49,987 bases of DNA from a virus. A program made the translations under genes and the position numbers. The stretch lies in IMG/VR virus record IMGVR_UViG_3300031603_000007, positions 1 to 49,987 of that record. One strand, 5' to 3'. The notes under the pieces were generated by a model. It did no database searches. It was not told where the DNA came from and worked only from the letters and a program-made list of their open reading frames with translations. The first letter of the stretch is position 1. Every line of letters begins with the position of its first letter. Of this stretch, positions 3,381 to 17,600 are shown in pieces.

Positions 3381-3731
3381 ATGAACTTATCGCCTGAATT
3401 AAAAGCAAAAAATACATTAAAATATTATTCTGCATTATGTAATATTAGCAATCACATTAATTTAGATGTATTAAAAAATAGATTAAGTGTTTTAGATATA
3501 GAATTAAAATACGATAAAAAAGAAGCGTATTACAATGATTTAAACAAAAGCTATCAATATAATGATTTACAATTATATCCAATTTGCAAAAAATCAAAAT
3601 TAAGCGTTTACAATGTTAAAAGTGATTTTTATAAAAATGAATTAACTTTTAAAACTCAAAAAGCCAACGAATTTAACCTATTAAAAAACAATTATTTTGT
3701 TGTAATTGCTGGAAATATAGCAAATTTATAA
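3381..3731 (+). CDS. Hypothetical protein (116 aa)
   Basis: 116 residues, lysine- and asparagine-rich and probably soluble (MNLSPELKAKNTLKYYSALC). No family is recognised. Its leader contains the three-way junction at 3308-3359, so its expression may be controlled separately from the rest of the operon. Confidence 0.6.
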   Translation: MNLSPELKAKNTLKYYSALCNISNHINLDVLKNRLSVLDIELKYDKKEAYYNDLNKSYQYNDLQLYPICKKSKLSVYNVKSDFYKNELTFKTQKANEFNLLKNNYFVVIAGNIANL

Positions 3732-3777
3732 ACTCTTAAAAATCACAACTAGAAAATTTACTTTAATATTTAAAATT

Positions 3778-3930
3778 ATGCAAACTAAAAAACGTACTAA
3801 ACGAGTTACAAAAAATGTAGATGTTAGGATTTACGATATTTTAACGAAAATATACGGCTCTTACAAAGCTAAAAATAAATATAAGTATCTTATGTTAAAA
3901 ACTGAAATTAATACAATTAACGCATTTTAA
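3778..3930 (+). CDS. Hypothetical basic protein (50 aa)
   Basis: 50 residues with a very basic N-terminus (MQTKKRTKRVTKNVDVRIYD); no domain is recognised. The ATTATG start context is the same as at neighbouring genes. Confidence 0.5.
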   Translation: MQTKKRTKRVTKNVDVRIYDILTKIYGSYKAKNKYKYLMLKTEINTINAF

Positions 3931-7468: not shown

Positions 7469-7567
7469 TATCTTTGTAACTTGATGTACTAGTACTGCAT
7501 TATAAAATTTACATTATATCCTTTAATTGAACGAGTGTACTAGGCTCAAGTAGATTAGAGGATTTTT
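7469..7567 (+). ncRNA. Pseudoknot small-RNA candidate, copy 1
   Basis: A -7 box TATCTTTG (7469-7476) is followed by interleaved arms: A1 CTAGTAC (7489-7495), B1 ATCCTTTAAT (7518-7527), A2 GTACTAG (7537-7543), B2 ATTAGAGGAT (7554-7563), then five T. A1-A2 is 7 bp. B1-B2 is 10 bp with one G-U and forms a terminator hairpin whose loop contains A2. Spacers are 22, 9 and 10 bases. The order and spacers match 16361-16468 closely and 9306-9414 approximately. No coding frame fits. Confidence 0.65.
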
Positions 7568-7878
7568 GTTTGACATAAGTTAAAAGGTGTTTACAATGGT
7601 TAGACCTTAAAAACTCAAACAACATATAGGAAATTAAAGTACTATAATACGGTCAAACGTTCCTTGCGAAAATCTATGCAATTTGCCACAAGTCAAAACA
7701 TAGTCAAAAGTAAGTATAATGTATATTAGCACCTAATCTAAGTAGGAATAGGAATAGTAGCCAAAAAAGATTCTAAAAGTCTTTAACCTTTTTTAAGTGT
7801 ATTTTAGTTAATGCTATTATATATACTTACTAAGAATAGACTTGAACACACTAATAATAACCTAAAAAACAAATAAAA
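7568..7878. other. Non-coding region with a long-range stem
   Basis: About 310 bases without a gene. AGTAAGTATA (7709-7718) and TATACTTACT (7822-7831) pair perfectly over 10 bp. Just inside, TAGCA and TGCTA can add 5 bp, and a hairpin AAAGATT/AGTCTTT lies in the middle. The 123-base folded unit could be another structured RNA. No promoter box with the TAnnTTTG pattern is obvious directly before it. Confidence 0.45.
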
Positions 7879-8633: not shown

Positions 8634-9308
8634 ATGGAAAAAAATAAATTACAAACAGTAAGCGATGGAATTGCATTAAAAGATTTAGGACTTTCAGAAG
8701 ATATTGTGCTAAATGAAAAACAATTACAAATACTATTTAAAAAAACACCACCTAAACACGTTTACCAAAGACCTGCCAAAGGCGGTGGTAAATGGGATTA
8801 CGTTACAGGAACTTATGTAAGGAAGGTTTTAAACCTTATGTTTAACTTTAATTGGGATTTTGAGGTGGTAGAGCATAAATTTGATTTGCAGTTAAAACAA
8901 GCCTTTGTATTAGGCAAATTAACGGTAAGAACAAATGAAAAAACTATTGTGAAAATGCAATTTGGCACAAAAGACATTATGTTTAAAAAAGCTGTTGATC
9001 CTGATACAAATATGAGGATGCCTTTAGATTTAGGAAATGATTTGAAAGCTGCAACAACAAATGCTTTAAAAAAGTGCGCAAGTGAGTTAGGTATTGCAAG
9101 TGATGTTTACGCACCAAATGAATTTAAAGAAATTAAAGTTGCTATTCCAATTGATACAATTAGTGATGAAGAAAAGGAACAAAAAATTAAGGCAATTTTA
9201 GATAGTGATGTTGAAATTGAAGAAACAGACAGAATGAGCATTGAAAGGATTTTAGATGAAAAACAGACTTTAAGTTACGACAAAATAATTAAGAGGTTTG
9301 GTAATTAG
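8634..9308 (+). CDS. Rad52-like single-strand annealing protein
   Basis: A 224-residue recombinase that should anneal single-stranded DNA ends for phage recombination. The N-terminal half has a Rad52-type pattern: a basic glycine-rich turn (RPAKGGGKWDYVTG), the helix YVRKVLNLMFNFNWDFEV, strands through VLGKLTVRT, then DLGNDLKAATTNALKKCASELG. The C-terminus is acidic and variable. It pairs with the exonuclease at 9937, as in phage two-component recombination systems, with an HNH gene inserted between. Its TAG overlaps the promoter box of a pseudoknot RNA. Confidence 0.8.
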   Translation: MEKNKLQTVSDGIALKDLGLSEDIVLNEKQLQILFKKTPPKHVYQRPAKGGGKWDYVTGTYVRKVLNLMFNFNWDFEVVEHKFDLQLKQAFVLGKLTVRTNEKTIVKMQFGTKDIMFKKAVDPDTNMRMPLDLGNDLKAATTNALKKCASELGIASDVYAPNEFKEIKVAIPIDTISDEEKEQKIKAILDSDVEIEETDRMSIERILDEKQTLSYDKIIKRFGN

Positions 9309-9414
9309 GTTTGTACGTGTATATTCCGTACATTTACTATAAATCCTGCAAGATTAAAGTTTAATTTAAAGCCCTTTTCTTTGTTTACTTGCAGGTACAT
9401 CGAAAGGGGTTTTT
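9306..9414 (+). ncRNA. Pseudoknot small-RNA candidate, copy 2
   Basis: A -7 box TAGGTTTG (9306-9313) overlaps the stop of the annealing-protein gene. Arms are A1 CCTGCAAG (9345-9352), B1 at 9368-9379 (core CCCTTTTC), A2 CTTGCAGG (9388-9395) and B2 at 9402-9413 (core GAAAGGGG), ending in a T-run. A1-A2 is 8 bp and perfect. B1-B2 is 12 pairs with two G-U. Spacers are 15, 8 and 6. A further hairpin TGTACG/CGTACA (9312-9332) lies upstream of A1. It sits just before the HNH gene, so an attenuator for that gene is the main alternative. Confidence 0.6.
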
Positions 9415-9422
9415 ATATTATA

Positions 9423-9956
9423 ATGACTACAAAAGAAATATGGAAGAATATTCCAAACTACAAAGGTTTTTTTCAAGCAAGTAATTTAGGTAGAATTAAA
9501 AGCCTTAAAAGAAAAGGGGTTAGAAATGAAAGGATAATGAATCCGTCACCGAATAGAGATGGTTATTTAACTGTGTGTTTATCAAAACCTAAAAATTCTA
9601 AAATAAAACACTCTAACGTAAGAACAGTACATCAACTTGTTGCTATTACATTTTTAGATAATAAACCCGATGGCACTAATAAAATAGTTGTGGATCATAT
9701 AAACCGTATTAAAAAAGATAATCGTTTGGTAAATCTACAATTAGTTACTAATAGAGAGAATTGCACAAAGGATATAAATAACACAACATCTAAATACGTT
9801 GGTGTTTGTTATGATAAAAATAGAAATAAGTGGGCGTCTAAAATTAAGATTAATAATAAAACTAAAAATTTAGGTCGTTTTCAAAACGAATTAGAAGCCC
9901 ATTTAGTATATCAAAAAGAACTTAAAAAAATAACAGATGAGCATAATAGAAAATAA
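9423..9956 (+). CDS. NUMOD4-HNH-AP2 homing endonuclease
   Basis: 177 residues from the ATG at 9423; an upstream extension exists but runs through the terminator hairpin. It has NUMOD4 (EIWKNIPNYKGFFQASNLGR), an HNH core (VVDHINR, DNRLVNLQLV, REN) and AP2 (SKYVGVCY, NKWASKI, LGRF). The same architecture occurs at 525-1040 and 47996-48532. It is inserted between the annealing protein and the exonuclease, and overlaps the exonuclease start by 20 bases. Confidence 0.9.
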   Translation: MTTKEIWKNIPNYKGFFQASNLGRIKSLKRKGVRNERIMNPSPNRDGYLTVCLSKPKNSKIKHSNVRTVHQLVAITFLDNKPDGTNKIVVDHINRIKKDNRLVNLQLVTNRENCTKDINNTTSKYVGVCYDKNRNKWASKIKINNKTKNLGRFQNELEAHLVYQKELKKITDEHNRK

Positions 9957-10731
9957 AGAAAGAGTAGGTAGATTTACAAGCTCCCAAGTTTACAAACTTA
10001 TTGGAATGGGAAGTAAACCAATGACAAAAGAAGAATTGGTAGATTTTAAAGTGCAAAATCCAGGAAGTAAGAAAAGAAACAAGTCTTGTGGATTTTCACA
10101 ATTAGGTTTAACATACATTTCCGAAAAGAGATTAGAGAGAAGAATGGGTAGGAGTTTAGATGTTGGTGGATATTCTCAACCTGCGGCTTGGGGAAACTTC
10201 TGCGAGTTTGTTATCTTCAATTTGCTAGGATTAGAATATACAATAGAATCACAAAAAACAGTATTGCATCCTGACAAAGAATTAAGTAAATATTGGGGTG
10301 GTTCAGTAGATTTAACTGTTCCAAATAAAAAAGTAGCAGAAATAAAATGCTACCAACCAAAGAATTTTGGGTTTTATGCAGATTGCCTAATGAAAAAAGA
10401 TATTGAGGTATTTAAGAATGAATTTAGCAGTGAATATTGGCAAATAATTTCTAACTCAATTATACATAATGTTGATATTGGAGAAGCAATACTTTATATT
10501 CCTTATGAATCTGAAATGCCTGAAATTCAAGAAATGGCATATAATTTTGAAGGAGAAGATAAATGGAAATATCGTTTTATTGCTGAAAAACCAATATCTG
10601 AACTTCCCTGCATACCTGATGGTGGTTATTATGAAAATATCGTAAAGTTTGAGTTTGAAGTACCGACCAAAGATAAAACTTTCTTAATAAGCAGAATTAA
10701 AGAAGCTGTTGAATTACTAGTTGAGGTTTAA
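9937..10731 (+). CDS. YqaJ-like recombination exonuclease
   Basis: 264 residues resembling YqaJ/lambda-exonuclease nucleases that resect double-stranded ends for an annealing partner. It shows the N-terminal RFTSSQVYKLIG, a helix with WGNFCEFVIF (catalytic Glu candidate), YWGGSVDLTV (Asp) and the metal-binding KVAEIKCYQP (E..K). Later SEYWQIISNSII fits the usual Q-containing helix. With the Rad52-like protein at 8634 it would form the phage recombination pair. Confidence 0.8.
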   Translation: MSIIENKERVGRFTSSQVYKLIGMGSKPMTKEELVDFKVQNPGSKKRNKSCGFSQLGLTYISEKRLERRMGRSLDVGGYSQPAAWGNFCEFVIFNLLGLEYTIESQKTVLHPDKELSKYWGGSVDLTVPNKKVAEIKCYQPKNFGFYADCLMKKDIEVFKNEFSSEYWQIISNSIIHNVDIGEAILYIPYESEMPEIQEMAYNFEGEDKWKYRFIAEKPISELPCIPDGGYYENIVKFEFEVPTKDKTFLISRIKEAVELLVEV

Positions 10732-16360: not shown

Positions 16361-16468
16361 TATCTTTGTAACTAGTTATGCTCTAACATCATAGTAACTA
16401 AAGGAATTATTATAAAGTCTTATTTTGAAAGTGGATGTTAGAGCCTACTTGATAAATAGGACTTTTTT
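16361..16468 (+). ncRNA. Pseudoknot small-RNA candidate, copy 3
   Basis: The clearest member. A -7 box TATCTTTG (16361-16368) precedes A1 GCTCTAACATC (16380-16390), B1 AAAGTCTTATTT (16414-16425), A2 GATGTTAGAGC (16434-16444) and B2 AAATAGGACTTT (16454-16465), ending in a T-run to 16468. A1-A2 is a perfect 11 bp. B1-B2 is 12 bp with one G-U. Spacers are 23, 8 and 9. B1-B2 alone is an intrinsic terminator, and A2 lies in its loop, so both stems together make a pseudoknot. It lies between two genes with no coding potential. Confidence 0.7.
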
Positions 16469-16512
16469 AATTTAATTAACTTTTGTTTGTTTAGTAAAAC
16501 ATTCACAACATT

Positions 16513-16728
16513 ATGCCAAATGTAAAATTATTATTTTGCGGTACAGAACAAAGTGAAACACAAGAACATCAATTACAATGCTATTCAAACACTAATAACG
16601 AGATTTATATAGGGATTGATGGAGATGTAAATAATGATTATTTTAAAGGTTTTCTTTGTTTAGATAAATCAACAGCTATCAAGCTACATAGAGAGTTGAA
16701 AAAACAAATTTCATTCTTAAACGATTAG
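16513..16728 (+). CDS. Hypothetical protein (71 aa)
   Basis: 71 residues, strand-rich (VKLLFCGTEQSETQEHQLQC), with a C-terminal helix (STAIKLHRELKKQI). Not recognised. First gene after the pseudoknot RNA, two bases before the DUF4373 gene. Confidence 0.6.
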   Translation: MPNVKLLFCGTEQSETQEHQLQCYSNTNNEIYIGIDGDVNNDYFKGFLCLDKSTAIKLHRELKKQISFLND

Positions 16729-16730
16729 TA

Positions 16731-17600
16731 ATGGCTAAGGATTTACCATACTTCAAATTTTTCTGCTCAGAGTGGAATGATGGAGATATAACTCTTGAAA
16801 CATACGAACATCAAGGTTTATTTATAAATATTTGCTCTTACTATTGGAGTAATGAATGTAATGTGCCTTATGATAAATTATTAAAGAGGTTTAGGGGTTG
16901 TGATGACCTTTTAAATGATTTGAGTGCTGCTGGTTTGTTTAAAATAGTTGAAGGTAGGTATTTATCAATTAGTTTTTTAGACGAACAACAAGAAGAGAGG
17001 GAAGAAACTTCCAAAAAAAATAGTTATGCTGGTAAATTATCAGCAAAAAAGAGAGCATTAAAGAAGTTAGAAGAACAAAAATCCAACGAACTTACAACGG
17101 AAAATCAACGAGCGTTAAATTTACGTTCAACGGAAACTCAACCATTAAGAGAAGAGAAGATAAGAGAAGAAGAGATAATAGAAGATAATATAGAATTATA
17201 TAGAAGTTTCGCTCATCTTAAATTATCAACAGAAGATTTTAATAAGCTATTAGAAAAATATAATAAAGAACAAATTGATAACATATTAAATAATATAGAA
17301 AACTTTAAAAATAATAAAAAATATAAATCACTTTATTTAACTTCTTTAAACTGGCTAAAAAGAGAATATCCAAATAAAGAAGATTTTGTACCTAAAATAC
17401 CATACCCGACTAAAGATGATGAAGTTTTTAAATATGCAGTTACTGTTTTTAAAACAAAAGAAGAATATTGGAAACATAAAGAAGCTCTAAGAATACAGTT
17501 TGTTTCTTGGTCTGTTAGTGGTTGGAAAGATTACAAAAATCAGCCAATTATTAATTGGAAAAAATCAGTTTGCGATAAAATAAACTTTTTAATAAAATAA
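16731..17600 (+). CDS. DUF4373-type replication protein
   Basis: 289 residues. The N-terminal domain matches the DUF4373 / Lin1244-like pattern seen in phage replication initiators: MAKDLPYFKFFCSEWNDGDI, the helix GLFINICSYYWSNEC, and YLSISFLDEQQEER. A charged linker follows (about residues 85-150), then a C-terminal helical domain (FNKLLEKYNKEQIDNILNNI). It probably acts with the ATPase at 18081 as an initiator or helicase loader; this is inferred from position. Confidence 0.7.
   Translation: MAKDLPYFKFFCSEWNDGDITLETYEHQGLFINICSYYWSNECNVPYDKLLKRFRGCDDLLNDLSAAGLFKIVEGRYLSISFLDEQQEEREETSKKNSYAGKLSAKKRALKKLEEQKSNELTTENQRALNLRSTETQPLREEKIREEEIIEDNIELYRSFAHLKLSTEDFNKLLEKYNKEQIDNILNNIENFKNNKKYKSLYLTSLNWLKREYPNKEDFVPKIPYPTKDDEVFKYAVTVFKTKEEYWKHKEALRIQFVSWSVSGWKDYKNQPIINWKKSVCDKINFLIK

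Follow-up and report, generated by a model that had tools for sequence, protein, structure and literature searches.

We describe a family of phage RNAs that was previously uncatalogued and has no entry in Rfam. The reading that best accommodates the observations, to which we assign a probability of roughly 60%, is that these are leader RNAs of a new type, in which a promoter is followed by an RNA of about 100 nt that folds into two hairpins with kissing loops, ends in a terminator and gates the gene behind it. At the level of the sequence, direct support for this reading comes from the promoter, four helices, the terminator signature, covariation, the position of the RNA before start codons and the exchange of genes behind a conserved RNA. 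The family adds a widespread and strongly covarying RNA to the viruses of Flavobacteriia, in which gene control is poorly known; through one module, it would tie together how these phages control replication start and homing endonucleases. Its members also form a natural series, tens of terminators whose kissing loops match perfectly, in which one can test whether a tertiary contact with the transcript's own 5' end tunes a terminator.

Three copies of the RNA in the analyzed window

The window, that is, the whole stretch of DNA that was analyzed, is a 49,987-base IMG/VR virus record (29% G+C) with a gene content that points to a tailed phage of Flavobacteriia-type hosts. The first-pass annotation had singled out three intergenic loci with a TAnnTTTG box followed by four arms in the order A1-B1-A2-B2. 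Coordinates, arms and boxes proved accurate, as did the perfect A helices of 7, 8 and 11 bp (Table 1). The B helices, each with one or two G-U pairs, had been given as 10, 12 and 12 bp, which is correct except for the first (11 bp). The loci are indeed intergenic, with one small overlap: the 9306 box begins with the three bases that also serve as stop codon of the Rad52-like gene at 8634-9308. Copy 9306 is the weakest of the three, with a box 31 nt before A1 and with only about 3 bp in stem D and 3 bp in stem C, the two additional stems described below.

These features were turned into a descriptor (TAnnTTTG, then A1-B1-A2-B2, with a T-run ending B2; one G-U pair tolerated in A and two in B) that was scanned against both strands. 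In the window, it matched exactly three times on the plus strand and never on the minus strand, compared with a single match in 20 dinucleotide-shuffled strands.

Table 1. Features of the three RNA copies and of the adjoining genes in the window.
Feature	Coordinates	Strand	Description	Basis
Copy 1 (locus 7469)			box TATCTTTG; A = CTAGTAC/GTACTAG, 7 bp; B = ATCCTTTAATT/GATTAGAGGAT, 11 bp, 2 G-U	
Copy 1 -7 box	7469-7476	+	TATCTTTG	sequence
Copy 1 5' hairpin	7482-7502	+	7-bp stem D; 7-nt loop exactly A1 (CTAGTAC, 7489-7495)	fold
Copy 1 terminator hairpin	7518-7567	+	B 7518-7528 with 7553-7563; U-tract	fold
Copy 1 inner stem C	7533-7536 with 7544-7547	+	7-nt loop exactly A2 (GTACTAG, 7537-7543)	
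Copy 2 (locus 9306)			box TAGGTTTG; A = CCTGCAAG/CTTGCAGG, 8 bp; B = AAAGCCCTTTTC/GAAAGGGGTTTT, 12 bp, 2 G-U	
Copy 2 -7 box	9306-9313	+	TAGGTTTG; unusually far from A1; may not be the true box	
Copy 2	9345-9415	+	A1 9345-9352 (CCTGCAAG), B1 9368-9379; U-tract at the end	
Copy 2 3' arms		+	A2 9388-9395 (CTTGCAGG), B2 9402-9413	
NUMOD4-HNH homing endonuclease gene	9423-9956	+	start codon 9 nt after B2 of copy 2	
Copy 3 (locus 16361)			box TATCTTTG; A = GCTCTAACATC/GATGTTAGAGC, 11 bp; B = AAAGTCTTATTT/AAATAGGACTTT, 12 bp, 1 G-U	
Copy 3 -7 promoter box	16361-16368	+	TATCTTTG	sequence
Copy 3 5' hairpin	16373-16400	+	stem D 16373-16379 with 16394-16400	minimum-free-energy fold
Copy 3 A1	16380-16390	+	GCTCTAACATC; entirely inside the D-hairpin loop	
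Copy 3 terminator hairpin	16414-16470	+	B 16414-16425 with 16454-16465; U-tract to 16470	fold
Copy 3 inner stem C	16429-16434 with 16445-16450	+		fold, covariation
Copy 3 A2	16434-16444	+	GATGTTAGAGC; in the terminator-hairpin loop	
71-aa ORF	16513-16728	+	start codon 47 nt after B2 of copy 3	
Replisome-organizer/primosomal-type replication gene (organizer)	16731-17600	+	MAKDLPYFKF..	PHROG 29280, 9327, 13246

Distribution of the RNA family

Applied to 2.23 Mb of DNA from Flavobacterium, Cellulophaga and uncultured phages, the descriptor recovered the same architecture at 84 places; in each of the two scans, a matching amount of shuffled DNA yielded 0 matches. The family, which had initially been taken to have three members, comprises tens of lineages across many phages. 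Most of the set consists of uncultured contigs, and the IMG/VR sequences were retrieved through relatedness to the organizer, to DUF3127 or to a terminase; given that sampling began from replication genes, the share of copies located before those genes is biased upward. The segment analyses below used 49 nonredundant RNAs, with one doubtful match (L012:23584) omitted.

In Flavobacterium phage filifjonk9-1, an RNA of the same layout but with different letters occupies the intergenic stretch that separates the DUF3127 single-strand-binding gene from its next neighbor. Similar copies lie 5' of replication genes in mumin9-1, morran9-1, Nekkels_1, phi18:3 and phi19:1, and elsewhere in the genome in FL-1. 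In phi18:3 (NC_021794), the RNA is on the minus strand, at about 3183-3072. By BLAST, 46 Flavobacterium phage records contain the filifjonk RNA; in the sampled rows, it falls in unannotated sequence or beneath a hypothetical gene. No copy was detected in Gundel_1 (43.8 kb of 78.8 scanned), Arctus_1, P12024L or FpV9, or in the first 50 kb of crAss001. When bacterial hosts were searched, the organizer was found in only one bacterial contig; the class II covariance model described below had no match in 395 genomes of the class of that contig, a weak negative result because few candidates per genome were scored.

Several divergent elements were also observed. Flavobacterium phage 11b (L176:33621) has one looser intergenic copy with a 9-bp A helix and an 8-bp B stem. 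An odd copy in Cellulophaga phage Nekkels_1 (L006:43431), with a 21-bp B stem, no clear D and a box 33 nt before A1, is either a divergent member or a chance variant. Larger variants that the descriptor missed are located 5' of the organizer (L097, ~2800-2980; L024, ~9850-9990; L026, ~3690-3860; L037, ~9860-9990); these contain inserted extra hairpins, and their loops are complementary by eye.

In agreement with the first-pass annotation, which knew of no described family of this kind, no Rfam 15 family scored above the gathering threshold for the window and 16 further loci, and a search of a small region by E-value returned only sub-threshold matches to microRNA models. No description of the RNA was found in the open literature, an earlier one being possible in the subscription papers and preprints outside the search, and a keyword search of a 2010 survey of 104 structured RNAs (PMC2864571) gave no match.

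Two hairpins with kissing loops

The interleaved pairing of A and B is real, but the simple A-B-A-B pseudoknot originally proposed lacked two stems, C and D, which were never required by the descriptor and were noticed by reading the copies side by side. Stem D encloses A1 and stem C encloses A2, so that A becomes a loop-loop kissing interaction. The RNA consists of a 5' hairpin (stem D) that presents A1 and a 3' terminator hairpin (B and the inner stem C) that presents A2, and A1/A2 is a kissing helix of 7-11 pairs (about 8 Watson-Crick pairs) with almost no G-U pairs (5 of 390, versus 59 of 582 in B). When copies 7469 and 16361 are folded without pseudoknots, A1 and A2 end up in apical loops, one in each of the two hairpins.

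Both additional stems stand out against a control in which arms were exchanged between unrelated copies: stem D has 5.27 native versus 3.60 swapped pairs (z 9.8) and stem C 3.5 versus 2.43 (z 9.2), values unmatched in 2000 swaps, and two control pairings gave z 0.2. Among 45 segment pairings examined across the 49 nonredundant RNAs, only B, A, C and D exceeded the swapped controls (z 30, 28, 9.5 and 6.0, respectively); the signal for A and B is partly by construction, these having been selected by the descriptor, whereas C and D were not selected.

The linker between D and B has at least 9 nt in all copies except 9306, for which the assignment of D is doubtful, and its median length is 16. Linker length shows only a lower bound and no positive correlation with helix length, which rules out the use of such tracking as proof of cis stacking; the length is compatible with bridging inside one molecule and is no proof of it.

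Two loop arrangements exist, in which the purine-rich strand is either A1 (GTGAGACG type) or A2 (GAAGTGAGACG, GAAGTCAGAAG). In either hairpin, a short A/G lead tends to mark the 5' side of the purine-rich loop, and the opposite loop tends to have a few unpaired bases on its 3' side, a tendency only, with some 15 of the 49 copies fitting neither signature. Given that these flanking features follow the purine-rich loop, whichever hairpin carries it, the two arrangements suggest one three-dimensional contact reached in two orders.

The first-pass claim of covariation rested on differing arm sequences, and the alignments bear it out with genuine compensatory changes. In the class II alignment (14 sequences, including copy 16361), only 7 of 110 columns are invariant, yet 94.8% of the cells are paired, both partners have changed in 24 of 30 pairs, and doubly changed cells number 101 versus 30 in shuffles. 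Annotated as a pseudoknot, helix A reaches 99.1% pairing in this alignment; 6 of its 8 pairs show compensation, and none has changed on one side only. The other loop arrangement, aligned from 13 sequences, gave an agreeing result, including compensatory changes in stem D. Between filifjonk and mumin, which are 91.5% identical here, two adjacent A pairs are changed on both sides, from GTGAGACG/CGTCTCAC to GTGGAACG/CGTTCCAC.

Covariance models point the same way. The class I model, built without the A pairs and without copy 16361, matches 16375-16471 with E=0.0057; the class II model matches copy 16361 at 7e-16, with that copy in its training set. Models without the A pairs also recovered two more copies, L053:6683 and L060:9181, and in both of these A1 and A2 match perfectly over 7 nt.

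Promoter and terminator

A scan independent of the descriptor, in which neither promoter nor T-run was asked for, was run upstream of 58 nonredundant organizer genes. It yielded 36 copies, of which 33 have TAnnTTTG at most 38 nt upstream and 32 have TTTT ending B2; six shuffles of the whole input gave 2 matches, with neither box nor TTTT. TTG at 19-nt spacing is enriched, with 13 of the 49 copies having it at precisely this distance upstream of the box; TTG is the -33 element of Bacteroidetes promoters. Stem D mostly starts 2-8 nt after the box, and from this distance, together with the box and the TTG spacing, the D hairpin would form the 5' end of the transcript. At the other end, counting from the last G/C of B2, positions 2-4 have a T fraction of 0.92-0.98. 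By these signals, the RNA appears to carry its own Bacteroidetes-type promoter and an intrinsic-terminator 3' end, as had been proposed from the three window loci.

Genes behind the RNA

A same-strand start codon follows the RNA within 7-53 nt in 83 of the 84 copies. The exception is copy 7469, with no ORF of at least 45 aa starting within 60 nt and the next ORF 315 nt on; the roughly 310 nt after it without such an ORF (7568-7878) may be what is left of a lost gene, or may hold another non-coding RNA. Of 73 copies checked, 70 lack a promoter box in the gap between RNA and gene, and in 49 copies the gap is only 7-25 nt, too short to hold one.

The downstream genes form more than 20 clusters of unrelated families; several of their names reflect the look of the sequence, Pfam and PHROG matches having been obtained only for the genes of the window itself. 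The organizer is the commonest second neighbor or direct neighbor of the RNA: 31 of the 84 copies precede an ORF of about 70 aa that is followed by the organizer (the commonest context; gap 43-53), and 20 precede the organizer directly (gap 7-21). Other copies stand before genes for HNH-type and GIY-YIG endonucleases, a primase-size gene and others. In the window, the homing endonuclease gene behind copy 2 matches NUMOD4 and HNH_3 in Pfam, with a sub-threshold AP2 match, and the 71-aa ORF behind copy 3 has no Pfam or PHROG match; the family of ~70-aa proteins adjoins the organizer-type gene on its 5' side in the aligned phages. A second small hairpin, GGT-ATCTTAAA-ACC (e.g., CGGTAATCTTAAAACCG; L002:6015-6060, L013:10458-10494), is often located just before the ATG of the ~70-aa ORF and may be a translational operator; the window has GTTTGTTTAGTAAAAC instead.

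Gene exchange behind the RNA is documented by two related phages (L168 and L169), whose sequences agree at 88% identity up to the end of the ATG behind the RNA, diverge into different endonuclease-type genes, GIY-YIG in one and HNH-type in the other (L168:3200-3784 and L169:475-987), and then become similar again. The differing genes occupy one site, directly upstream of a common gene resembling the large terminase, and are exchanged exactly at the ATG behind the same RNA, which indicates that the RNA is a module to which genes attach at the start codon.

A proposed kissing-loop terminator leader and its alternatives

The reading as an attenuating leader follows from the combination of a host-type promoter, an intrinsic terminator and a start codon directly behind. 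RNA polymerase would start at the TAnnTTTG promoter; the D hairpin would fold at the 5' end and offer loop A1; and once the terminator hairpin of B and C formed, its loop A2 would dock on A1. Most transcripts would then stop as a compact RNA of ~100 nt with both ends in structure, and a fraction would read into the gene, the leader thereby setting or gating replication-initiation genes, homing endonucleases, primases and others, as a module with different genes attached.

None of the 45 segment pairs tested provides an alternative antiterminator pairing. A classical two-state attenuator is therefore not at hand, and a trans factor or plain leakiness must be assumed. The kiss with the 5' hairpin is the only feature beyond the terminator, and we infer that it would set how readily or how lastingly the terminator forms, that is, the efficiency or the permanence of termination. 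Conditional termination, its tuning by the kiss and a kiss within one molecule are thus predictions from sequence. Partners might be a protein that binds kissing loops irrespective of sequence, as Rom recognizes the kissing loops of RNAI/RNAII, or the released short RNA itself. A bolder version, in which the RNA is a portable gate whose terminator is controlled by the kiss with its own 5' hairpin, with re-codable loops that sense a sibling RNA in trans and give each gene a private orthogonal channel, is possible but tentative, at odds clearly below even.

The chief competitor is a free-standing, trans-acting phage small RNA in which the kiss would lock the ends, confer nuclease resistance and leave the molecule to act on a host target or protein, with expression of the gene behind being mere leakage. 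An independently transcribed RNA was also the view of the first-pass annotation, and the RNA's own promoter and terminator agree with it, as do the sequestration of both the 5' and the 3' end, the lack of any alternative fold among those sought, the persistence of the RNA while the gene behind is exchanged, and copy 7469, which has no close gene and is a counterpoint to the leader reading. Moreover, phage genes are packed and co-directional, so that a free-standing small RNA would also often lie just before a start codon. An orphan RNA is nevertheless hard to reconcile with a same-strand start codon within 53 nt of nearly every copy and with the lack of an intervening box, since the genes would then be left behind a terminator. 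Nor do the arms suggest targets: in seven phage sequences, those of 8-11 nt occur nowhere else and those of 7 nt about as often as base composition predicts, which also speaks against the decoy role once suggested, and loops that vary freely leave no fixed host target sequence. Nothing found supports the other proposed role, as partner of a defence or counter-defence system. On balance, we consider a free-standing small RNA unlikely, if still a contender.

Loop-loop control in trans, with the released short RNA kissing nascent leaders of the same locus in the manner of RNAI/RNAII or P4 cI RNA, would provide feedback that depends on copy number or is specific to superinfection, and the diversity of the loops would then reflect selection for orthogonality. 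The scarcity of G-U pairs in A compared with B fits this scheme, as do arms that are never common to two copies of one genome, the textbook 7-nt loops of copy 7469 and the prominence of replication genes among the targets. Against it, pairing in cis has the advantage of concentration, and the linker of at least 9 nt suits bridging in cis; the orthogonality within genomes is not significant, all 20 directed pairs being complementary over at most 3 nt, an outcome that by our estimate chance gives ~6% of the time. We regard this scheme as improbable.

A feature of the DNA, in which a replication or regulatory protein would bind a pair of inverted repeats with an unrelated terminator between them, would account for A arms that are perfect inverted repeats almost without G-U pairs, often beside a replication gene. 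Yet the arms differ between copies of one genome and between phages while complementarity is kept, and stems C and D, the U-tract, the promoter position and the orientation all belong to the RNA level, so this explanation is very hard to sustain. Chance pairing, for which one could cite the low G+C of the window, where T-runs and weak stems are common, is refuted by the shuffled controls, the arm-swap tests and the compensatory changes.

Comparison with known systems

With attenuators that use intrinsic terminators (trp-type, T-box, pT181/pIP501 type), the proposed leader shares the promoter, the structured leader, the terminator directly upstream of a close start codon and the service of many kinds of genes by one leader type. 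It differs in that no mutually exclusive antiterminator pairing was detected and in that its terminator loop kisses the 5' hairpin; the highly conserved ligand-binding core that marks riboswitches is likewise not seen in its few invariant columns or in Rfam.

RNAI/RNAII of ColE1 and the cI immunity RNA of phage P4 act by loop-loop kissing, and the phage RNA resembles them in its fully complementary apical loops (7 nt in copy 7469), its variable loops and its association with replication genes. It differs in carrying both loops in one RNA on one strand, and the seven phage sequences revealed no antisense transcript or second target with the complement.

The pRNA of phi29 is also a small phage RNA with two complementary loops and low sequence conservation. 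The leader RNA, however, has 7-11 pairs rather than 4 and an intrinsic terminator, and its neighbors are replication, homing and other genes rather than a packaging ATPase. ToxI, the RNA antitoxin of type III toxin-antitoxin systems, is likewise small and pseudoknotted, with a terminator and then a gene behind it; it comes as tandem repeats beside a ToxN-like gene, whereas the leader RNA occurs in single copies before genes of many families that are not a toxin family.

Finally, hairpins before free-standing homing endonuclease genes in T4-like phages similarly place an RNA structure near the start codon of a homing gene. Those hairpins hide the ribosome site, whereas the leader RNA combines a putative promoter, a kissing pair and a terminator and serves many non-homing genes.
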